Shown: positions 478-24,646 of the stretch, in pieces
Numbering within the stretch: the stretch's first letter is position 1
Layout: every line of letters begins with the position of its first letter
IMG/VR virus record: IMGVR_UViG_3300033146_003022
Location: 1 to 36,903 of that record
DNA: 36,903 bases
Origin: a virus
Reading direction: 5' to 3' (one strand)
Notes under the pieces: generated by a model
Seen by the model: the letters and a program-made list of their open reading frames with translations, nothing else
What the model was told of the DNA's origin: nothing
Database searches by the model: none
Program-made: the position numbers and the translations under genes

Positions 478-1992
478 TTGTGGAAAGAAATCTATAAATT
501 TTCAAAGAAAACCGGAATTGAATGTTCAATAGATGGATTAAATGAAACTTTAAATTTAGACTACGATAAAGATTCATACACCGATTTCGTAAATGATTTA
601 TTCAAGGATATACTCGATGAGCATGGTAATGAAATATATCCCAGAGACTATCAATTTGAATCAGCATATAGGGCTCTTCAATATGTATATTGTACTCAAG
701 AATTAGCAACATCGGCTGGTAAAACTCTAATCTTTTATATCTTTAATTGTTATTTAAAACATAAGGGGATAATAAACAAAGATAATAAAGCACTTATGAT
801 AGTTCCTAACATATCGTTAGTGGGTCAGACTGAAGAAAAATTTAGATTATATTCAAATGGTTTAGTCGATTGGAATATATTAATGATAGGCGGTAATAAT
901 AAATTCAATGAAGAGGATTTTGCTAATGCTGACATGATAATATCTACTTATCAAAGCCTCATTAACTTTGAAGAAAAGAGCATAGATTCACAATTAGTTA
1001 ATGCTCTAAAGAAAAAGAATAAACTGGAGAAACTAAAGACTCCAAAAGAAAAGGAATTACAGAAGGCTATTAATAAAGTAGATACTTTAAAACAGAGGAT
1101 TAAATATGCAGGTGAATTTAAAATGTTTGATAATTATATTGTTGTTAATGTAGATGAAACTCATAAGTCTAGGGGTTCCTCTATTTCAAATATAATAGAT
1201 GCTTGTAAAAACTGGAAATATAAACTTGGTCTTTCTGGAACTGCTAAAATATCTGAAGACTATTCTGATTTCTACAAGATACAAGAAAAGGTTGGACCGC
1301 TTGTCATGACCCTCTCTGCAAAGTATCTAATAGAGCACGGGTACTCTCCTAATGTATCTATTCGTATGGTATACTTAACATATAATAAAGACAATTCGGC
1401 TGCACAGGAATACATTAAAATGCGAAAGAGTCCTGATGATATAAAGAGAATGTACAAAGATAATAAAGAATATGGTAAGGAAATGCTTACTATAGAAAAG
1501 GGAATTATCTTTGATAGTATGGAGAGGCTTAACTTAATAAGTGGCATGGTTAAGAAGTTTGGTAAAAATACTCTTATTCTTTTTTCAGATGTTAAAAATG
1601 AATATGGTAGAAATATATGTAATAAATTAAAAGAATGGAATAAAGACACTTTCTATATAGATGGAGGTATTGAAAGCGATCAGCGCGATGAGTTTAAAGA
1701 TGCCATGGAAAAGAATGAAGGTGTAATAATAGTAGCTAGCTTTGGAACATTCTCAACTGGTATTGATTTAAAGAACGTACATCACATTATATTTGCAGAA
1801 ACTACAAAGGCTGAAATAACAATTCGACAGTCTATTGGTAGAGGAATGAGAAAGCTTGCGAATAAAAATAAAGTCACTATATGGGACCTTGTGGATAAAT
1901 TAGATGGCTATTCAGTACGCCATTCTGAGGTACGAGAAAATATCTATATTGAACAGGCGTTCAATATCAAGAAACACGAAGTTAATCTCTAG
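478..1992 (+). CDS. uvsW: UvsW-type superfamily 2 DNA/RNA helicase
   Basis: In T4, UvsW unwinds branched DNA and R-loops and drives the switch to recombination-dependent replication. All core helicase motifs are visible: Q-motif-like RDYQFESA, Walker A ATSAGKT, motif Ia IVPNISLVGQ, Walker B VNVDETH (T4 has DECH), motif III LSGTA, motif V STGIDLKNVHHIIFAE and motif VI RQSIGRGMR. The C-terminus ends EVNL, close to the TVNL end of T4 UvsW. A lysine-rich helical insert (about residues 179-215) is not in T4. The start is uncertain. TTG at 478 is used here, but the same frame is open upstream to 427 and its translation (LKYDHFITNENTIRIG) reads like protein. A GTG at 420 would join this frame after a one-base shift. 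Confidence 0.9.
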   Translation: MWKEIYKFSKKTGIECSIDGLNETLNLDYDKDSYTDFVNDLFKDILDEHGNEIYPRDYQFESAYRALQYVYCTQELATSAGKTLIFYIFNCYLKHKGIINKDNKALMIVPNISLVGQTEEKFRLYSNGLVDWNILMIGGNNKFNEEDFANADMIISTYQSLINFEEKSIDSQLVNALKKKNKLEKLKTPKEKELQKAINKVDTLKQRIKYAGEFKMFDNYIVVNVDETHKSRGSSISNIIDACKNWKYKLGLSGTAKISEDYSDFYKIQEKVGPLVMTLSAKYLIEHGYSPNVSIRMVYLTYNKDNSAAQEYIKMRKSPDDIKRMYKDNKEYGKEMLTIEKGIIFDSMERLNLISGMVKKFGKNTLILFSDVKNEYGRNICNKLKEWNKDTFYIDGGIESDQRDEFKDAMEKNEGVIIVASFGTFSTGIDLKNVHHIIFAETTKAEITIRQSIGRGMRKLANKNKVTIWDLVDKLDGYSVRHSEVRENIYIEQAFNIKKHEVNL

Positions 1993-2057
1993 CAGTTACA
2001 GCAGTTACAAGAACAGCTGTCTCCACATTTACATATTTTACAGTTACAGTTTTTCAT
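1989..2057 (-). CDS. Cysteine-rich microprotein, metallothionein-like
   Basis: A 22-codon ATG frame lies 13 bases downstream of the neighbouring minus-strand gene. Nine of 22 residues are cysteine, at positions 4, 6, 9, 11, 15, 17, 19, 20 and 22, giving repeated CxC spacing and one CC pair. The other residues are mostly N, K, S, G and D. That density and spacing are typical of metal-thiolate cluster peptides, so metal binding is the natural inference. No family match is claimed. The stop overlaps the uvsW stop by three bases on the opposite strand. It is too short to be statistically secure as a gene, but this composition is unlikely by chance in such AT-rich DNA. Confidence 0.5.
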   Translation of the reverse strand: MKNCNCKICKCGDSCSCNCCNC

Positions 2058-2070
2058 TGCTTATTATTTT

Positions 2071-2622
2071 TTAATCATCGTCGCCCGTAAGTACAACTTT
2101 CATATCATCTTCAGATGTCATTTCAAACTCATATGGTTCCATGCCAATGAAATCTTTATGACTATGTTCAAGTATAATGCTAAGTACTTCAATTATTGAA
2201 TTTGCATCTTTAAAATAATTATAACCATCTGGCGATGATGGTTCTATTTGAATACTTGGAAAATAATATTCTGGTGTTGCCACTCCATCTTCGAGACTCT
2301 CTTCCTGTGCCACTAACCATCCTCCATTAAAGTGAATATATGTTTTAATTTTTCCATCTTCAATTTTACATTCTCCTTCCAAATTTAATTCAACCACTTC
2401 CCATAATTCATTACTGTATGGTTCTGGCTTTGTTGGATTAATATCGAAGAAAAAATTTAATTCGTCATTATCAATTTTAATAGATATACTCTTGTTTATT
2501 TGGTCTCTATTATCACTTACGAATTTCTCAATGGCTACCTTTATATTTTCTAACGAAAGACTATTATCTTCTTGCTCATTAATCCTTTGAAATTGACTAA
2601 AGTCTTTAATATAGTTTTTCAT
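2071..2622 (-). CDS. Probable internal head protein with capsid-targeting leader
   Basis: A 183-aa acidic protein. Residues 1-16 (MKNYIKDFSQFQRINE) have the form of a T4 capsid-targeting sequence: a short basic/aromatic helix ending in I-N-E, where the prohead protease would cut. T4 internal proteins such as IPIII start in the same style (MKTYQEFIAEA). The next gene upstream (2632-3084) has almost the same leader but an unrelated body, so the leader is a shared module. The rest of the protein is acidic, ends DGDDD, and has no motif I recognise. Upstream spacing is 9 bases, so the two genes are probably co-transcribed. The packaging role is inferred; the body's function is unknown. Confidence 0.7.
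   Translation of the reverse strand: MKNYIKDFSQFQRINEQEDNSLSLENIKVAIEKFVSDNRDQINKSISIKIDNDELNFFFDINPTKPEPYSNELWEVVELNLEGECKIEDGKIKTYIHFNGGWLVAQEESLEDGVATPEYYFPSIQIEPSSPDGYNYFKDANSIIEVLSIILEHSHKDFIGMEPYEFEMTSEDDMKVVLTGDDD
2572..2622. repeat. Leader-coding direct repeat, copy 1
   Basis: This 51-base stretch matches 3034-3084 with two mismatches. It covers the start codon and the whole predicted capsid-targeting peptide of the gene at 2071-2622. Similarity stops where the leader ends, so the repeat unit coincides with a protein module. Confidence 0.85.
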
Positions 2623-2631
2623 ATCTTTTTA

Positions 2632-3084
2632 TTATTTCCACATCATCTCTGACATTACATCAGCGATTTTTTCTTCAAATCCAGACGCAGTATCCTCATA
2701 ATCATTAGCAGTTGTGGGTATTGTTTCAATATTATCCTTTAAAGATATTTCCAATTCAGAATCTTTCTTATTTAATCTAAATAAAAATTCTTCTTTTACA
2801 ATTGGTGCTTCATCTAATTCATAAAATTCATCTTCTTCATATCCACTATCTTCGCTCCATTCTTCTTCTTCTCTTGTAGAAGTGACTATTATTTCTGCTG
2901 ATTTTCCATCTAATGTTCTTCCATGTGCAGTTATACTTCCATCGCTAGCGATTGTTCCATTCATACCATTTTCGTACATTCTATCTGCTATTGCATCTAC
3001 TAATTCTTCCCAAGATGGATCTTGGCTAAAACCTTGCTCATTAATCCTCTGAAATTGACCAAAGTCTTTAATATAGTTTTTCAT
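2632..3084 (-). CDS. Probable internal head protein with capsid-targeting leader
   Basis: A 150-aa acidic protein beginning MKNYIKDFGQFQRINE, which differs from the leader of the downstream gene at one residue in sixteen. Predicted cleavage is after E16 (motif I-N-E). The body has an acidic middle (about residues 70-95, EEEEW and SGYEEDEFYELDE) and no recognised domain. It heads a small leftward operon that continues into 2071-2622 and perhaps the cysteine-rich microprotein. Upstream lie a TTTAGTATATTATA element (3101-3114) and, farther out, AATAAATA (3124-3131), both on the minus strand. Confidence 0.7.
   Translation of the reverse strand: MKNYIKDFGQFQRINEQGFSQDPSWEELVDAIADRMYENGMNGTIASDGSITAHGRTLDGKSAEIIVTSTREEEEWSEDSGYEEDEFYELDEAPIVKEEFLFRLNKKDSELEISLKDNIETIPTTANDYEDTASGFEEKIADVMSEMMWK
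3034..3084. repeat. Leader-coding direct repeat, copy 2
   Basis: Partner of 2572-2622 (49 of 51 bases identical by eye). It encodes the first 17 residues of the 150-aa protein at 2632-3084. The bodies of the two genes are unrelated. Confidence 0.85.
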
Positions 3085-3122: not shown

Positions 3123-3530
3123 TTATTTATTATTTTCTAAGCTATCAAAAACAACCTCTATCTTTTTTATTATAGGATTTCTAACAACGTCTTCTGGATC
3201 TCTTAGTTCTATACAACCAAATCCTTCAACTTGTTTAAATTGATCTATGATTATTTCTAAAGAACTATCTCTTTTTATATCCTTTTGTCTAACGTCTCCC
3301 ATTATTACCATTTTAGAATTATCACCTATTCTAGTCATAAGAGTTCTTATATTATTCATTGTAATATTCTGAGCCTCGTCTATTAAAATAATTGAATTAT
3401 CAATACTTCTTCCTCTGGCGAAAGCTATTGGAACTATTTCAATTAATCCTAATTCCATCATTCTATCCAGTCTGCTTTTTCCTATTAGTTTCCTAAGATT
3501 ATCTGTAAACGATTCCATTATAGGAGCCAT
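3123..3530 (-). CDS. phoH: PhoH-like ATPase, C-terminal part (frame-broken)
   Basis: This half carries the Walker B and sensor region of a PhoH-family P-loop ATPase. Visible are IEIVPIAFARGRSIDNS, Walker B IILIDEAQN, then TLMTRIGDNSKMVIMGDVRQ and, near the end, RNPIIKKIE. PhoH proteins are nucleotide-binding enzymes linked to RNA metabolism and are common in phages. The ATG used at 3530 falls inside what should be the middle of the protein. The N-terminal half lies at 3518-3838 in another frame. About 15 residues normally found between the halves (after the LKG segment) appear to be missing. The gene is either broken or misassembled. Confidence 0.75.
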   Translation of the reverse strand: MAPIMESFTDNLRKLIGKSRLDRMMELGLIEIVPIAFARGRSIDNSIILIDEAQNITMNNIRTLMTRIGDNSKMVIMGDVRQKDIKRDSSLEIIIDQFKQVEGFGCIELRDPEDVVRNPIIKKIEVVFDSLENNK

Positions 3531-3838
3531 CCTTTTAGTGGAGTTATAGATTTAATTAATACTATTCTTTTATATCTAACGGTATTCTTAATTGATCGTA
3601 GTGCTTCTGCACATGCTAGAAAAGTTTTACCTGTTCCGGGTAGACCATTACATATGGTAATTTCATTTTTTCTTATTGATTCTGTTAATCTCTTTTGGTT
3701 TATACTTCTATGTTTTATATTTACTTTAATTAATTCAAAAAGTTTGCGTTCTTCTACATTACCCTTATTTAACCATCCTTCTAATTCTTCTAAATCTTCT
3801 CTGGGTATGGCTTTGTTCTTTCTTTTCTTTTGACTCAT
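3518..3838 (-). CDS. phoH: PhoH-like ATPase, N-terminal part (frame-broken)
   Basis: This half has the nucleotide-binding P-loop GLPGTGKT followed by FLACAEALR and the conserved VLIKSITPLKG segment, then runs out of frame and stops after WLL. The Walker B half continues at 3123-3530 in the -1 frame, overlapping by 13 bases. Intact PhoH relatives have a short conserved stretch between LKG and the AP-ME-SF segment, and it is absent here. The simplest reading is a small deletion whose length is not a multiple of three. A working product would need both a frame change and tolerance of the lost linker, so I treat the locus as a probable pseudogene. Confidence 0.75.
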   Translation of the reverse strand: MSQKKRKNKAIPREDLEELEGWLNKGNVEERKLFELIKVNIKHRSINQKRLTESIRKNEITICNGLPGTGKTFLACAEALRSIKNTVRYKRIVLIKSITPLKGWLL

Positions 3839-12842: not shown

Positions 12843-13292
12843 TTATTGGTTTGATCCAGGTCCAGTACCTATTGAATCATCACTAAATCTTACAGTAGAT
12901 CTATCTATTTGTATAGTATTATCTCCTTTTTGTAATTTCGCTAAAGCCTTATGATTTTTCTTATTTGATAAATCATCTCTTTTTCCAGCCCTATCTGCTG
13001 CATTCATTTGTATTCCTTGTAAACATCTATTCTTTAAGTTCTTTTTCCAATTGCTATGGAATATAAGATTAATAGCTCTAGAAATATCTACTTCTTCTAT
13101 ATCCCCTTTGCTATTATATGGATCCCTAGTAGCCTTTTCATTTGCTAGTTCTTGAGCCATAGCCATTATGCTATTATAAAGGCTGGCTACTGCTGAATTT
13201 GCCATACCTGTATAATTTGTATTATATACGGCATCTCTTTCCTCATTAATAAAGGATTCAAAGTTATCTATATGTTTCTTATTATACGTCAT
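12843..13292 (-). CDS. Probable internal head protein with capsid-targeting leader
   Basis: A 149-aa basic protein. Residues 1-17 (MTYNKKHIDNFESFINE) fit the leader pattern with cleavage after I-N-E17. The body is helical with a K/R/N-rich stretch (about residues 81-118), the composition expected of a DNA-associated internal protein. It overlaps the 71-aa gene upstream by 11 bases. Function beyond probable packaging is unknown. Confidence 0.65.
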   Translation of the reverse strand: MTYNKKHIDNFESFINEERDAVYNTNYTGMANSAVASLYNSIMAMAQELANEKATRDPYNSKGDIEEVDISRAINLIFHSNWKKNLKNRCLQGIQMNAADRAGKRDDLSNKKNHKALAKLQKGDNTIQIDRSTVRFSDDSIGTGPGSNQ

Positions 13293-15360: not shown

Positions 15361-16893
15361 CTAAGAAAACTCAGAATATTGTTGTACGTGTACTTTTTTA
15401 TCTTTATCAATATTTGTAGATAGATTAATCTCTTTATTATCTATATTATTAATATTTTGAGTAACTTCTTCTTTATCTATATTATTATTTTCTTTAAAGT
15501 TTTTAAGACTACCCCAATGTCCTATTCCACTAGGAGTGTGCGAGGGTTCACCATTACCGGCATCTATAATCCCATTGCCCCTACCATTACTGGGTCCAAT
15601 TATAACATTTTTTGATGGAACTCCGCTTTTTATAGCAAGATTTACTGACTTATGAGTACCACCAGATGGTCCACTATTAAATGGTTCTATCATATATACA
15701 TTATTTTTATTTTTACTAGCAGATGCCACGCTGCTTGCCCATTGATTACCAGCACTAAACATAACAACTATGGATTGTGGATTAGCCTTTATTGCATTTA
15801 TGAAACCATTTTTATCATTATATCTATATCCATTTATTTTTTTGCCAGTTGTTTTTTCTAAAGCCTCAATCTGTTGATCTAAAGATAAATCATTGGGTCT
15901 ATTATCTAGGCCTGCTGAGAATATTATTAAATTTCCACTAACTTGATTAGTGACAATTTGATTATCTTTTTTAGTAGTAGTATTTCCACTTAATTTAGCC
16001 ATTGTTTCTTCATCTAATATCCCTGTTTTTTCTAAACCGTTTTTATTTTGATAATCACCAATTGCTGAATTTGTTAGTGTTCCAAGCTCCCCATCAATAC
16101 CATCTTTGTTTGGACCAAATGTTCCTAAATTATATCCCAATTCTTTGAATTTTGTTTGAGCAGTAATTATTGTTTGCTTAGAAATATCGTTAGTAACTTC
16201 ATTATCTATTTTTATAGTATGATCAAAGGGGTTTTCTAATTTTAAATCAGAACATCCTTTAAAATAATATTTATTAGTATCTCCATTATATGTATAGTAA
16301 TCATTTAATTTTCTACACCTAGTTCTACATCTACCATCTTTTTTACCTCTTTTAACATGCTTATCTGATTCAAATTTACAATATGCATACATCATCTTTT
16401 CTGCATCCCATCCATATTCATTACCAAAATCTACAAAGTTTTTAGGGGATGAATTTATTATACTAACACCTATTGCATATTGTCTTTCCGTTGACCAACC
16501 ATCAGCATATTTATTAAAATATGGTTTAAATTTACTTAAAGCTGCCTTATTCTGTATAGGTATACTTTCTTTAGAATTAAGAAATTTTTCCATACCTTCT
16601 TTCCATTGTTTATCTTCTATTTCTTTTCCAGCATATGTTTTAATAGAATCTATCATTTCATCATTGTCTCTACTAAAATATTTCATGGTATTCATTGTGT
16701 TATATAAATTCTTTAATCCACTTTTAGTAAAATGTAAAATACCAACTGCTGTATATCCATTAGAATCAATAAATAAATCTGGATAATCTTTAGATTTCTT
16801 TTTATCTGATATAACGTTTGTTATAGCGTTTGCTATAACACTATCTGATGCACTTTCATTTATGTATTGTAATATGCTATTAATATATTTCAT
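15361..16893 (-). CDS. Capsid-targeted peptidoglycan-binding protein with hydrolase-like regions
   Basis: A 510-aa protein with several regions. Residues 1-13 (MKYINSILQYINE) are a leader with an I-N-E site. Residues 40-200 look like a peptidoglycan hydrolase-type helical domain (GYTAVGILHFTKSGLKNLY), without a certain active site. Residues about 240-302 are a peptidoglycan-binding domain 1 type repeat (AQTKFKELGY, DGIDGELGTLTNSAIGDYQ, GLEKTGILDEET). Residues about 320-465 form an alpha/beta domain with IVVMFSAGNQW and GPSNGRGNG, function unknown. The combination suggests a virion-carried cell-wall enzyme. It is unusual that the leader predicts packaging in the head, not the tail. Confidence 0.7.
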   Translation of the reverse strand: MKYINSILQYINESASDSVIANAITNVISDKKKSKDYPDLFIDSNGYTAVGILHFTKSGLKNLYNTMNTMKYFSRDNDEMIDSIKTYAGKEIEDKQWKEGMEKFLNSKESIPIQNKAALSKFKPYFNKYADGWSTERQYAIGVSIINSSPKNFVDFGNEYGWDAEKMMYAYCKFESDKHVKRGKKDGRCRTRCRKLNDYYTYNGDTNKYYFKGCSDLKLENPFDHTIKIDNEVTNDISKQTIITAQTKFKELGYNLGTFGPNKDGIDGELGTLTNSAIGDYQNKNGLEKTGILDEETMAKLSGNTTTKKDNQIVTNQVSGNLIIFSAGLDNRPNDLSLDQQIEALEKTTGKKINGYRYNDKNGFINAIKANPQSIVVMFSAGNQWASSVASASKNKNNVYMIEPFNSGPSGGTHKSVNLAIKSGVPSKNVIIGPSNGRGNGIIDAGNGEPSHTPSGIGHWGSLKNFKENNNIDKEEVTQNINNIDNKEINLSTNIDKDKKVHVQQYSEFS

Positions 16894-18523: not shown

Positions 18524-20392
18524 TTATTTTTTATTAACTGTGTCATCTCTAACCCAAGCTGTCGTTATTGGTTTTCCATTGTAATCTACTGTTGACCAAG
18601 TTCTTCCAGGTTTTAATTCTATATTATACCAATTATGAGGTTTTATTCTACCCTTTGGATCTGTAACCATTTTAGTTGAAATAATTTTTCCTATTTCAGA
18701 ACCCTTGCCTGTTACTTTTTTAAGTAAATTATTTTTTCCTCCCGTATTTGCCATTGCTGATGTTCTAACATTTACATAATCTCCTTTTATAGTAACTACA
18801 TTACCGGTTGCTGTTGTATACGCAGCTCCTTTTGCTTTAACAATTATACCTTTATTTTCATAATCTTTATTGCTACGACTATCATCTATTGGTAATGATA
18901 ACTTAGGTACATCAATATATATTGCTCCTAATTTTCCATTATCGTCTTTCCAAACATCTTTTACTTTAAACTTTTTGTTTTCATCTGTAGTCCATGCATT
19001 CTTAGTAGTTATATAGTCTCCTTTTACAATAGTTCCAATCGATGGTCTTGGTGAAGCAAAGTGAACAGCCCATTGAATTCCATATTTGTCTTGCATATAT
19101 CCCATGTAATATTCTCCTTCGCCTAGCTTTTTAGTAGATGTTACATCAGCTTTACTGGCTTTATTCTTAAGCATAGTATCAAAAGTTGCTCTTGCTACAC
19201 TTCCCCATCCACCGGAGAATATACCTGTTTCTTCATCTCTGTCTTTTTTTGCTTGTGCATAAGATCTCTTAACATAAGAATTATTAGTTCCCGTTTTATC
19301 TAAATCAAATTTACTAGTCTTACCATATTTATCTACATCTCTACCCATGTTGGCCCATGTTCTATAGGCTTTTGCTTGTGCATCAGTTAACCCTGTTGAT
19401 GAACTTCCTCCGCTAGATTTTTTACTTACTTTTTTCTTTTTATCAGAAGGTGTATCAGATACTGAAGATGCTGATTCAGCAGCAGCTGCGTCAAATTTAC
19501 CTTGTTCTAATATCATTGAGAATCCTTCGAATGAAAATAGAAGAGATTCATTAGATGCTACTTCTTCTTTTTCTTCTTCTTTAGAATCATCTTTAGCTAC
19601 TGGTGCTTTATCTAATTCATTGGCTGTTTCAACCATTGCGTTTACTAAAGTTTGTGAAATTAGTGGGGATTTAGCATTCATATCGTATGAACTAGCAAAA
19701 CCAGCTCGTATTTTAAGAAGCCATCCTAAATCATCTTTAGTTAATGTATTGCTTCCAGTATCTTTCCATTCTAAAGATGGTACTACTTTTTTAAATGTTG
19801 GTAAAAGTTTCTTTATTTCAAGTAAGGCACCATCTGAATCACCAACTTTTATATTTCCCTTTACAGTTATTGGTTTATGTTTGATAGCATCTTCTGCTTC
19901 CTTTTTCTTTTTAGTTTCCGTAGCTATTTCTTCTTCTTTCTTCTTTGCTTCCTCTTCTTCTTTCTTCTTTGCTTCCTTATCTATTAAGTTTACTGTGAAA
20001 TTAACTTTATCTTTTCTATTTCCTTGTTTATACTTATCCATTTCTATGGATTCTTCATCATATTTTCCACCGTCTTTTCCAGTAAAAAGTTCATCTTTTA
20101 AGAATTTATCTACGTCAGCTACTATCTTACCTTCGTCATTCCATATTTTAGATTTAGAATTTTTAGTTTTCAATACGAAACTATCTTTAGTTTCATCGTC
20201 GTCCTTTTTTCTAATTAAAGCATATTCGATTCCTTCATCAGATACATATGTATCTTTTCTATTACTTCGCTTATTAGATTTTCTTTTAGCTTTTCTAGCC
20301 TTTCGTTTTTCCTTTTTAGACATAGATGGATCTACATCTAAATTCTGTTCAGTTAAAACTTGCCATTTTTTAAAATCCTTAATATTTGACAT
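18524..20392 (-). CDS. 622-aa capsid-targeted protein with SH3b-like C-terminus
   Basis: Residues 1-15 (MSNIKDFKKWQVLTE) form a leader with an L-T-E site. Residues 17-45 are very basic (KKEKRKARKAKRKSNKRSNR). A long K/E coiled-coil stretch lies near 145-170. Residues 283-296 (LLFSFEGFSMILE) look like a second, internal leader, followed by a low-complexity S/K linker. The C-terminal part (about 540-620) resembles a bacterial SH3 domain (GDYVNVRTSA, HNWYNIELK, TAWVRDD), a fold often used to bind cell walls. It may be a fusion of two head proteins or a protein cut into two pieces. The basic N-part could contact DNA. Confidence 0.65.
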   Translation of the reverse strand: MSNIKDFKKWQVLTEQNLDVDPSMSKKEKRKARKAKRKSNKRSNRKDTYVSDEGIEYALIRKKDDDETKDSFVLKTKNSKSKIWNDEGKIVADVDKFLKDELFTGKDGGKYDEESIEMDKYKQGNRKDKVNFTVNLIDKEAKKKEEEEAKKKEEEIATETKKKKEAEDAIKHKPITVKGNIKVGDSDGALLEIKKLLPTFKKVVPSLEWKDTGSNTLTKDDLGWLLKIRAGFASSYDMNAKSPLISQTLVNAMVETANELDKAPVAKDDSKEEEKEEVASNESLLFSFEGFSMILEQGKFDAAAAESASSVSDTPSDKKKKVSKKSSGGSSSTGLTDAQAKAYRTWANMGRDVDKYGKTSKFDLDKTGTNNSYVKRSYAQAKKDRDEETGIFSGGWGSVARATFDTMLKNKASKADVTSTKKLGEGEYYMGYMQDKYGIQWAVHFASPRPSIGTIVKGDYITTKNAWTTDENKKFKVKDVWKDDNGKLGAIYIDVPKLSLPIDDSRSNKDYENKGIIVKAKGAAYTTATGNVVTIKGDYVNVRTSAMANTGGKNNLLKKVTGKGSEIGKIISTKMVTDPKGRIKPHNWYNIELKPGRTWSTVDYNGKPITTAWVRDDTVNKK

Positions 20393-20446: not shown

Positions 20447-23400
20447 TTAACCCAATCTTTCAGTATCTCCAGTTTTTTCATATCCTAATTTACTAGATGT
20501 ATTTTTTCTTTTACCAGTACCAACATTAATTTCTTTAAATTTTCCAGTCTTTTTAAAATGTTCTTGATATTTTTTCCAAACTTTATTATATTCAATAGTT
20601 AATTTTTTTCTTAGCTCTGGATCCACTGATAGTAATTCACTTTGAAAATCATAATAGTTTACAATATATGTTAATAGTTTAGATGCATATATTGGATCAT
20701 TTATATCTACTATAAAATCAAACACGTTTCGTATTTGCTCGTAATAACTTCCTTTTTCAGTAAAATCACTTGTTGATGAATTTGAAGTTACTAATTTTGC
20801 TAAGAGCTTATCAGCAATTATTTTCCATTTAGTATCAGTTTTAGCTTTATTAAATAGATTGGTTACTTCATTCATATCTATTTTAGAAGAAGAAATATGA
20901 ATTTTATAATCATCATCTTTAAATCTTTCATCTAACCATTCCTCTCCTGTTTTATCATCAAATGGTTTATCTAATATTTCACCAGACGATGATTTAATTG
21001 GTTTTATAATATAATTAGATAAATTATATAATCTAGAAAGGGTATAATGTTTACTTAAATCCTTAACAAATTTACTTAGCTTTTCATCAGATTTAGCAGT
21101 TATCTTTGCTTTTGAATCATTTATTAATTGTTTAATAGTATTTTCATATTTAACCGGTATGTTTAATAAATATGCTAATCTATCTCCTTTAGCTTTTCTT
21201 TCTCTTATCAAACCATCTACTTTAGAGGGTTTAAGATTATCATCATATGCATTTTGTATTTGAATATTTAACTTTTTTATATCTTTTTTTAAATCTTTCG
21301 TGTTTAATGGATAATTCATTAGTTCTAATTCATGCCTATTTAATAAATTATTTTTTGTTTTTCTAATAAAATCGCTATCATTACCATTGCTTTTTAGTAA
21401 TTCCATCAATCCACCTACACCCTGTTCTCCCGCTAATCTTCTATTTAAAAAATCTGTATATACTTTAACTAATTTATTATTATCTTTTATTTCATTAAAC
21501 ATTTCAGGAGTAAGCTGAGAAAAAGTTTTAGTTATATACAATTCCTTTAATTCATCTGGTAATACTTTCCAATAATTTAATGGTAATGGATTTTCATTTC
21601 TATTTTTTAAATATCCACCTACACTACTTACACTAGTCCAATTTTTAGTTAACCATTTTTCTTTATCTTCATATGATAATCTATCTACAAACGCTTCTCC
21701 AGGGTCTTTGGTATTTAAATTTAGTTCTATTCCATGTCCACCTTTTTCTATTTCTGAAAGCTCGACGGGTATCAGAATATTATTCTTTAGATTTTCCATC
21801 TCTGTTTCAGATGGTATGTTATACCAAGGTTGATCTATTATTTCTTGTGGAACTTGTATATTGTGTTCAACTGGCCATGTGGTACTATGTCTACCTATAT
21901 CTCGTATAGAATCATGTGCTCTAGATGGCCATATCCTCTTAGCCATTTCTTCAAATGAAAAATGACCCAAATCTCCCCACTGTCCATTGTTGGATGCACC
22001 TACACACCAAAAAGAATTTTCTCCATTTGGAAGCTTTTTATTATTAACAAATACAACTGCTATATGAAAATTATCATAATATCTTCTAGCGTCTTCTATT
22101 AATATTTCATTCGCATCATGTTGACTAATAGCTCTATCATTTGCAATTCTCCACGCTAAGTATTTTTTATCTACGCTATCTGCACTAGATCTAGCAGTTC
22201 CTGATAAACTTCCCATGTCTGCATCATCCCTATCGGCATATTCTTTCCATTTTTCCATTTCATATTCCGTTCTCTTAACGTTTTCTATAAAATATATTGT
22301 TTGTTTGTTTGTTCCTGCTACATCTTGTCTAAATCCTCTATAATGACTTTTACCACTCCAAGATATACACCAATTATATGCCTCAGACGGTGCACCCAGT
22401 TCTCTTAATACTTTTTCAAAATCTTTTCTTGTTTCTACACAGAAATTATGACTCTCATTTCTATATACCTTATAGTTTGGAGTAGATAATACTATAGATC
22501 CTCCTGATTGTTTAAGAGTACCGGCTCCGCCTATACCTTCTAATTCTGTGAGATTTTTATCATGCATAAATGCTGAGATAGTAGCTTTATCTAAACTACC
22601 GCTCGGATTAACTAAACCGCCTGAAAAAACACTCTTTATAATTTTAAGATTAGCTTTAATACGTTTCATTTTTTCAAGTTCAGAAGTAAATTCTGCGGTT
22701 ATGTCTCTTCTAATATCTCTATCCTTTACACTTTTTAATTTTTTAGATAATTCTTTTGCATTATTATTTAATGCGTCTATTATTTCCTGTGTATGTGTAA
22801 TAAATTCAGCACTCTTAGATAATTTAATTTTATCTTCTGGTGTAAGTTCCTTTATTCCACCGTCTTCTAATTTCTGTGCTAGCTCTCTCCAATTATATTC
22901 TTCGCTAAATTTATTTCCAAACTCTACTTGAAATTCTTTTATTTTATCGCTTAGTGAACTTCCAAAATATCCAGTTTGTGGTAAATTTAATATCTCTTGT
23001 ATTTTTAATATAGCAGGACTAATGTCTCCAATTTTTAAAGAATTTAAATTTTTAAGTTTTGTCATTCTTCTAACATTATTAACTACTTGTTTTAAATCAT
23101 CGAAGTTTCTATATTTTTCTATATTAATTCTATCTTCATAATTGTTTGGTACATCTATTGGTAAATTAGCAGTTAATAATTCTTTCTTTAGTTCACTAGG
23201 TGCCCCAGATATTAATCTTTGAAATTGATTTATATAACTAGTTATTGTCGATAGGTCATTACCCTGAGTCTTCCATAATTCTAATTGTTCTTTATATCCT
23301 TCTAATAAAGAAAATATATTAAAACTATTTACATGTTTAAGATTTTCATAACTAGGATCCATATTTAATGATATTCCTGCGCCACTTAATAAATCTCTTA

Positions 23401-24646
23401 ATGAATCATCGGTGGGTATTTGTGGAGAAGTCGGTTCATCTGGTTCATTTGAATCTCCCCTAGAAAATCCTATCCCGTCTATTGCATCCATATAATATTG
23501 TTCAAATAAATCATACGGTTTATTATCTTCTTCCGAATCTGTAAAAATAGAACTACATATTCTTAAAAATAAATCATCTTCTAATGTATATAATCTAGCA
23601 AGTACATTTGCTATAATTGTTGGGTTTCTATGTTCTATTTGTCTACTATTTAATAAATTATCTTCTACCTTTGTAAAAAACTCCTTAAAAGTATTAACTA
23701 AACCTGGACCAAATTGTAATCCTTCTCGTTCATTATATTGAGTACCTGAAAGATCCATCATTTTTTTATCATCATCATCACTTAACTTAGGATCTCTATT
23801 AAATGATATTAGTTCGTATATTCCCTTTACCATTTCATGAACTAATACTAATATAGTATATCCATGTGCATCTATTTCATACCTATTAGTATTTTCATTC
23901 CACTTTAATTCAACTCTACCAATTGCTTGTGATCCTGTTAAGATTTGATGAATCATTTCACTAGGTATTTTAGAATATAATCCATATGTTTTTTTCATGA
24001 AATCATAATAATCTCCAAAGCTTACGCCTTGTATTTCTGTATCGCCCATTACGAAATCGTCTTTGATAGCTGCAGCAAACCCCTGTGTAAGTGCATTTTG
24101 TATTGCTCTTATATCTATTTCCTTTGCAAGCTTTGGGTTTTCATCACGTATTTCTTTCTTAATTTCCTTGAATTCAGCTGGCGATTTTCCTATTACATTA
24201 TTTTTAATATCACTTAAGTCTTCATCATTTACCATGTGTAAATTAAATTTAATCTTACTTATATCAAATCCTTTTCCAGAAAATATTTCTTCAACTATTT
24301 CCATAGCCTTTCTTTTCTTTTGAGTATCTGATAATTGAGATTCTGATTGTCGGATGGCTGTCAACAACCTAACCACTTCGGTACTATCTTGCATAGCAGC
24401 TTCTATATCTCCACCTGGAAATTCTGATTTTAATCTGTCTAAATATTCTCCGGATATTCCTAAATTATCTTCTAGACTTTCTGAAGTATTTTTCTTAGTT
24501 ATAAGGCTATTATATCGTTCTATTATTTTTTTTATAATAGAATTTATTTTTATAGGTGAGTCACTTATTCTTCTTTTAATAGCTTTTTTTGGATAAGCTA
24601 GTGTTTCAGTATATTCGTATATTTTTCTTATATGTTTCATTCTCAT
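20447..24646 (-). CDS. 1399-aa giant probable internal virion protein
   Basis: The largest gene in the window. It begins MRMKHIRKIYEYTET; I-Y-E11 fits the protease rule and the leader resembles HVKLYE at 28342. About residues 530-575 look like a peptidoglycan-binding domain 1 repeat (IGDISPAILKIQEIL, LPQTGYFGSSLSDKIKEFQ). About 729-900 hold a Cys/Trp-rich domain with HNFCVETRKDFE, YNWCISWSGKSHYRGF and FWCVGASNNGQWGDLGHF. The first 500 and last 450 residues are helical and charged. No catalytic site is clear: VHEMVKGIYEL near 265 lacks the second histidine of a zinc protease. A large ejected or head-core protein acting at the cell wall is a reasonable inference. Confidence 0.65.
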   Translation of the reverse strand: MRMKHIRKIYEYTETLAYPKKAIKRRISDSPIKINSIIKKIIERYNSLITKKNTSESLEDNLGISGEYLDRLKSEFPGGDIEAAMQDSTEVVRLLTAIRQSESQLSDTQKKRKAMEIVEEIFSGKGFDISKIKFNLHMVNDEDLSDIKNNVIGKSPAEFKEIKKEIRDENPKLAKEIDIRAIQNALTQGFAAAIKDDFVMGDTEIQGVSFGDYYDFMKKTYGLYSKIPSEMIHQILTGSQAIGRVELKWNENTNRYEIDAHGYTILVLVHEMVKGIYELISFNRDPKLSDDDDKKMMDLSGTQYNEREGLQFGPGLVNTFKEFFTKVEDNLLNSRQIEHRNPTIIANVLARLYTLEDDLFLRICSSIFTDSEEDNKPYDLFEQYYMDAIDGIGFSRGDSNEPDEPTSPQIPTDDSLRDLLSGAGISLNMDPSYENLKHVNSFNIFSLLEGYKEQLELWKTQGNDLSTITSYINQFQRLISGAPSELKKELLTANLPIDVPNNYEDRINIEKYRNFDDLKQVVNNVRRMTKLKNLNSLKIGDISPAILKIQEILNLPQTGYFGSSLSDKIKEFQVEFGNKFSEEYNWRELAQKLEDGGIKELTPEDKIKLSKSAEFITHTQEIIDALNNNAKELSKKLKSVKDRDIRRDITAEFTSELEKMKRIKANLKIIKSVFSGGLVNPSGSLDKATISAFMHDKNLTELEGIGGAGTLKQSGGSIVLSTPNYKVYRNESHNFCVETRKDFEKVLRELGAPSEAYNWCISWSGKSHYRGFRQDVAGTNKQTIYFIENVKRTEYEMEKWKEYADRDDADMGSLSGTARSSADSVDKKYLAWRIANDRAISQHDANEILIEDARRYYDNFHIAVVFVNNKKLPNGENSFWCVGASNNGQWGDLGHFSFEEMAKRIWPSRAHDSIRDIGRHSTTWPVEHNIQVPQEIIDQPWYNIPSETEMENLKNNILIPVELSEIEKGGHGIELNLNTKDPGEAFVDRLSYEDKEKWLTKNWTSVSSVGGYLKNRNENPLPLNYWKVLPDELKELYITKTFSQLTPEMFNEIKDNNKLVKVYTDFLNRRLAGEQGVGGLMELLKSNGNDSDFIRKTKNNLLNRHELELMNYPLNTKDLKKDIKKLNIQIQNAYDDNLKPSKVDGLIRERKAKGDRLAYLLNIPVKYENTIKQLINDSKAKITAKSDEKLSKFVKDLSKHYTLSRLYNLSNYIIKPIKSSSGEILDKPFDDKTGEEWLDERFKDDDYKIHISSSKIDMNEVTNLFNKAKTDTKWKIIADKLLAKLVTSNSSTSDFTEKGSYYEQIRNVFDFIVDINDPIYASKLLTYIVNYYDFQSELLSVDPELRKKLTIEYNKVWKKYQEHFKKTGKFKEINVGTGKRKNTSSKLGYEKTGDTERLG

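Follow-up and report, generated by a model that had tools for sequence, protein, structure and literature searches.

Does an open reading frame of 22 codons, nine of them for cysteine, represent a gene, and what could such a peptide do for a phage? The question arises from a stretch of viral DNA of 36,903 nucleotides (IMG/VR record IMGVR_UViG_3300033146_003022; hereafter the window). A sequence-only reading had singled out a minus-strand frame with regular CxC spacing next to uvsW, placed it behind two probable head proteins and proposed that it encodes a phage-borne, metallothionein-like peptide. We show here that the frame is a real, selected protein-coding gene and that it belongs to a microprotein family with nine invariant cysteines, common to phages and flavobacteria.

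A nine-cysteine frame in the window

The frame was recovered exactly where it had been described, with 22 residues, an ATG start and a TAG stop (Table 1). Its stop codon and the stop codon of uvsW share one CTAG, so that the ORF occupies the whole interval separating the two convergent transcription units. Cysteine is indeed rare elsewhere in the window (GC content 28.7%), accounting for 0.72% of the 10,037 residues in the larger ORFs, and the next-best short ORF of the window has four cysteines. Four hundred order-2 Markov simulations of the window yielded about 140,000 ATG ORFs of 15 to 40 residues; none of these contained eight or more cysteines and one contained seven.

Table 1. Positions of the features discussed, numbered from the first letter of the window
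Feature	Position	Strand	Remarks
uvsW-like DNA helicase; convergent neighbour and synteny anchor	478..1992	(+)	PHROG DNA helicase, 9.5e-64
Shared CTAG, stop codons of the microprotein (-) and uvsW (+)	1989..1992		Same convergent layout in L415/L492
Nine-Cys microprotein gene	1989..2057	(-)	MKNCNCKICKCGDSCSCNCCNC; Cys pattern CxCx2CxCx3CxCxCCxC
Microprotein start context	2058..2072	(-)	A at -12 to -15, as in Bacteroidota
Gene upstream of the microprotein, probable internal head protein	2071..2622	(-)	Capsid-targeting-like N-terminus MKNYIKDFSQFQRINEQ
Second protein with the same N-terminal leader	2632..3084	(-)	MKNYIKDFGQFQRINEQ
ORFs with a T4-like capsid-targeting-type N-terminus	2071-3084, 12843-13292, 15361-16893, 18524-20392, 20447-24646		

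The position behind two further minus-strand genes was correctly described, the nearer one ending 13 nt ahead of the microprotein start. Their assignment as head proteins is probable and derives from the T4-like capsid-targeting-type N-termini (MKNYIKDFxQFQRINEQ); PHROG and Pfam searches with the two leader-bearing proteins gave no family match. An N-terminus of this type is found in many otherwise unrelated proteins of the window, which suggests numerous packaged internal head proteins.

Two other genes of the window are irregular. Its uvsW is without about 60 N-terminal residues of its relatives (569 residues in L006 and L007): in the region 420-480 and 478-1992, the frame reads VLKFKV, meets a stop and resumes at NENTIRIGLWKEIY, as would result from either an internal deletion with frameshift or an assembly error. 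The phoH gene (3123-3838) consists of two overlapping ORFs and the stretch after SITPLK is missing, L466 having a single PhoH of 249 residues.

Relatives found through uvsW

In the closest uvsW relatives (L006-L010, UvsW 81-83% identical), other genes occupy the slot of the microprotein and no copy was present anywhere in these partial records, indicating that the microprotein is dispensable there. A wider search with uvsW gave 28 loci, with the microprotein in the slot only on a 137-kb contig (L415/L492; uvsW 69% identical). This homologue, MKNCNCQKCKCGTSCSCKCCNC, is embedded in the same gene order as in the window, that is, phoH, a leader-bearing head-type protein, the microprotein and convergent uvsW; the slot of the gene at 2071..2622 is filled in L415 by a different protein of 181 residues with the same N-terminus. 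All nine Cys codons are identical between the two microprotein genes, and the remaining codons differ by four synonymous and five nonsynonymous changes.

A family across viral contigs

IMG/VR was scanned for the bare pattern CxCx2CxCx3CxCxCCxC, with some residues limited to avoid poly-Cys repeats. The scans returned at least 128 raw matches, at least 125 clean members (at least 123 viral loci, the window and one genome locus, some contigs possibly being near-duplicates) and at least 97 distinct peptides. Start position, length and stop position were not demanded by the pattern. The clean members listed nevertheless measure 20 to 24 residues (21 residues in 77), with an ATG one to four codons before Cys1 and a stop at, or at most two codons past, Cys9; in 120 of the 128 raw matches listed, the stop follows Cys9 directly. 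The window ORF has exactly this form. Because the pattern itself partly imposes the constancy of the cysteines in this set, the tests based on neighbouring genes, described below, matter.

The start regions are also alike. Among the 125 clean members listed, A occurs at -3 in 112, at -12 in 113, at -13 in 110 and at -6 in 84, and Shine-Dalgarno-like words are present in only 2. A at the same four positions promotes initiation in Flavobacterium johnsoniae (PMC6847099). The A-rich start context provides independent support for translation of the frames, and it indicates Bacteroidota hosts. The window copy has G at -3 instead of the usual A, and no Shine-Dalgarno sequence was found upstream of its start (2058..2072). 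From the start signals, the cultured relatives of neighbour genes (several are nearest to genes of Flavobacterium phages) and the flavobacterial chromosomal copies, we infer that the phage hosts are flavobacterial; the host of the window phage probably is as well.

Outside the cysteines, about 77% of the members listed have G at motif position 9 and S at position 11. Each of ten larger viral records tested carried exactly one copy. One locus (L203) has an extended variant of 36 residues with 13 cysteines, apparently a partial internal duplication; no other Cys spacing in the fetched loci was convincing. Peptides of this length do not allow a reliable phylogeny. Searches of the phage collection by tblastn or blastn with the peptide or gene, a weak method for 22 residues, returned nothing or chance fragments.

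The microprotein was found in none of the cultured phages tested. With three mismatches allowed, the motif was absent from Flavobacterium phage immuto, Methylophilales phage Melnitz and Tenacibaculum phage pT24, which have neighbour genes in common with the family; a single three-mismatch match in immuto contains stop codons and was ruled out. The small immuto gene right behind a cupin-like gene was also rejected as a counterpart, since it encodes a membrane-type peptide that is not Cys-rich.

Phage contexts and presence or absence beside an oxidoreductase gene

The surroundings of the phage copies vary. Some copies follow a small gene whose stop overlaps their start by 4 nt, others follow genes for head proteins, a T4-like major capsid neighbourhood among them, and others adjoin uvsW as in the window. 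In a further context, the microprotein closes its transcription unit ahead of an FAD-oxidoreductase gene, and after it come a hairpin, an intrinsic terminator and a box resembling a promoter (read by eye). No zinc or copper metal-homeostasis gene was present among the identified neighbours of phage and host loci. The small upstream gene resembled a cupin by eye, a reading dropped when it matched no Pfam or PHROG family.

Three observations on these loci are recorded here. In L209, L389 and L391, about 115 nt after the microprotein, a conserved spacer leads up to the FAD gene; it carries a GACTGATTCATAGCCAGTC-type hairpin, then a terminator and a promoter box of the TATATT type, and is possibly a regulatory RNA. 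L230 and about 24 other loci have a phage protein family that often lies two genes before the microprotein, one member having a Cys-rich N-terminus (MCSCGCNTCETT). In two phages, L539 and L544, another small ORF with cysteine codons, unlike the microprotein (MKEKICKTICKITFNKVCLGWCESKCCK), begins the list of features some 690 nt ahead of the FAD gene.

We fetched 80 loci via the FAD-oxidoreductase gene, without using the cysteines for selection; 69 of these had enough upstream DNA. The microprotein ORF was present in 12 of the 69, and all 12 carriers had nine of nine cysteines. Non-carriers had at most five of nine, apart from L540, whose motif falls at the edge of the available sequence, so that its start is out of view. 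The gene is therefore intact or absent rather than decaying. Pairwise comparison of the carriers gave 214 synonymous and no nonsynonymous differences in Cys codons; the pN/pS ratio of the non-Cys codons was 0.51 in phage pairs. The sequence-only reading had proposed to look for the frame in relatives, expecting synonymous change and constant cysteines in a real phage gene, and this was the outcome. The broken frames or lost cysteines that it named as refutation were not seen among the phage copies, which showed clean presence or absence only.

A chromosomal gene in a flavobacterial genus

The only cellular match among the matches listed was in a Cryomorphaceae MAG (L369, Flavobacteriales). Here the gene is set in ordinary chromosomal DNA, with genes for glutamine synthetase, a Ca/Na antiporter, pirin and a methionine sulphoxide reductase-like protein (the last by eye); the host version of the peptide is MDCNCKSCDCTKSCDCTCCNC. 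In the genus of this MAG, 18 of 25 species have exactly one copy, all with no mismatch to the motif where two were allowed, in a test that still required a near-match to it. All 18 copies adjoin the same Ca/Na antiporter gene, and 12 of them lie behind the same gene of 119-122 residues. The latter (L467 3586-3945, homologues in L577-L593) had no Pfam match. The seven genomes without the microprotein were also without the antiporter, and positive controls worked; the locus thus seems to be missing or unassembled in these. In one host copy (L581), ATA replaces the ATG.

Cys codons of the host set showed 498 synonymous and no nonsynonymous pairwise differences, the non-Cys codons being much freer (pN 0.37, pS 0.51). 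The microprotein was rare in wider samples: 395 genomes of the order included 1 carrier, and 149 genomes of the family included 2. The FAD-context and host-genus tests agree and identify a real, selected microprotein. The description of the gene as phage-borne holds, but in part: a flavobacterial genus conserves it on the chromosome too, so it is not confined to phages.

The family is strongly conserved and apparently has not been described before. As the sequence-only reading had anticipated, its members are short enough to escape annotation. Small-ORF catalogues predict ORFs from 30 nt (PMC11364881), and single members may already sit unannotated in these.

Comparison with known metallothioneins

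No family covering the microprotein was found by profile searches of Pfam, NCBIfam, PHROGs and the PDB. The sole Pfam family touched, below threshold, was plant metallothionein PF01439 (E 0.46-0.48, 11.8 bits versus a cut-off of 23), with 11 of the 45 members searched touching it at a best E of 0.46. Phage residues 3-22 align to profile positions 62-81 of 81, the C-terminal Cys domain. Plant metallothioneins differ in being eukaryotic and in that their Cys domain is one part of a larger, two-domain protein.

Metallothioneins in general are small, gene-encoded proteins with about 30% cysteine in CxC and CC motifs, few or no histidines and aromatic residues, and metal-thiolate clusters. The nine-Cys peptides have such a composition: the 97 peptides listed contain 42.3% cysteine in CxC and CC motifs, with histidine in 2 and an aromatic residue in 1 of the 97, and their net charge is about zero. 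The mammalian beta domain is an M3Cys9 unit with nine cysteines in one domain. Here the analogy is in Cys count and stoichiometry only, as the Cys spacing is different and the beta domain makes up one half of its two-domain protein; Pfam and the PDB yielded no significant profile match.

The curated models of prokaryotic (SmtA-type) metallothioneins in Pfam and NCBIfam gave no match either. SmtA/BmtA-type proteins have about 56 residues and a zinc-finger fold. They resemble the microprotein in being bacterial, small and Cys-rich, and they bind zinc, as the microprotein may do. They differ in being longer and, like bacterial metallothioneins generally, in having more His and hydrophobic residues (PMC10612145). 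The short copper metallothioneins of Neurospora crassa and Agaricus bisporus (26 residues, 7 Cys, X2-CXC-X5-CXC-X3-CXC-X2-C-X3; PMC4755600) are likewise single-domain, very short and built of CxC repeats. The microprotein, in contrast, has 20-24 residues and nine cysteines with a CC pair (CXC-X2-CXC-X3-CXC-X-C-CXC), and occurs in bacteria and phages. Our search of the open-access literature turned up no relevant report of a metallothionein encoded by a phage or virus. To our knowledge, metallothioneins are scarcely known in Bacteroidota. The original label, metallothionein-like, is thus the best structural analogy by composition, but no metallothionein family was significantly matched.

Possible function

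The Cys-rich composition and the count of nine thiolates make a metallothionein-like reading the most likely one, and we assign a probability of about 0.65 to a minimal metal buffer of this kind. As a minimal metallothionein, the peptide would wrap its nine thiolates (CxC-x2-CxC-x3-CxC-x-C-CxC) around one metal-thiolate cluster, with room for some three divalent ions (Zn3Cys9-like) or for several Cu(I). During infection, its task would be to buffer or store zinc or copper, to pass these metals on, or to guard against metal or oxidative stress, at a cost to the phage of about 22 residues. In the host lineage the resident gene would have the same chemistry, and the phage copy would most simply be a host-related auxiliary gene moving among phages. 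In this proposal we infer metal binding, the identity of the metal, the benefit during infection and the direction of host-phage transfer from sequence.

Rather unlikely, in our judgement, is a structural role in which a metal-folded mini-domain, instead of handling metals, binds and regulates a target, be it a protein of host or phage or a nucleic acid. Zn3Cys9 clusters are known in DNA- and protein-binding domains, such as the CXC domain of MSL2 (PMC3447885), and the preferred G and S show that the non-Cys positions are not free. However, the non-Cys codons evolve quickly in host and phage alike, the near-zero net charge is unlike that of nucleic-acid binders, and CXC domains are much longer than this peptide. 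It is also unlikely that the peptide is a thiol redox buffer, a pool of reactive cysteines serving as antioxidant or disulphide reservoir with metals incidental. Nine thiols in 20-22 residues would suit this role, as would the many phage copies near an FAD/NAD(P) pyridine-nucleotide-type oxidoreductase gene; yet the spacing is rigid across the 97 peptides listed, beyond the needs of a plain thiol pool, the oxidoreductase gene usually lies behind its own terminator and promoter-like box, and most oxidoreductase loci are without the microprotein.

Very short, Cys-rich and at some loci near a flavoprotein, the peptide could be taken for the precursor of a ribosomally made, post-translationally modified product with cysteines cross-linked by a maturase, but this is very improbable given that there is no constant maturase or leader sequence and that the neighbours are completely different between phages and host. 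That the frame is no gene but a TGTAAC-type repeat or a chance ORF between convergent genes, perhaps a terminator, is hardly credible: the DNA does contain repeated TGTAAC units and the predicted fold of the plus strand is slightly more stable than in shuffled sequences (z -1.28), but chance or repeat DNA is contradicted by the simulations and by the conservation data (constant length, start signal and stop, with only synonymous Cys-codon change in two sets), and an RNA element or terminator by a coding-strand fold energy equal to that of shuffles (z 0.04).

Returning to the metallothionein-like reading, we see about even odds for its wider form, in which these peptides would be the smallest bacterial metallothioneins, undescribed so far, residing in small-genome flavobacteria, repeatedly carried by the phages of these bacteria at unrelated sites and adjusting host zinc or copper. 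If metallothioneins, they would be smaller than the fungal proteins of 26 residues that were formerly regarded as the shortest (PMC4755600), and would be common to host and phage while invisible to ordinary annotation. Phages would then adjust the zinc or copper pools of their hosts during infection, and the management of intracellular metals by phages would become a testable question.
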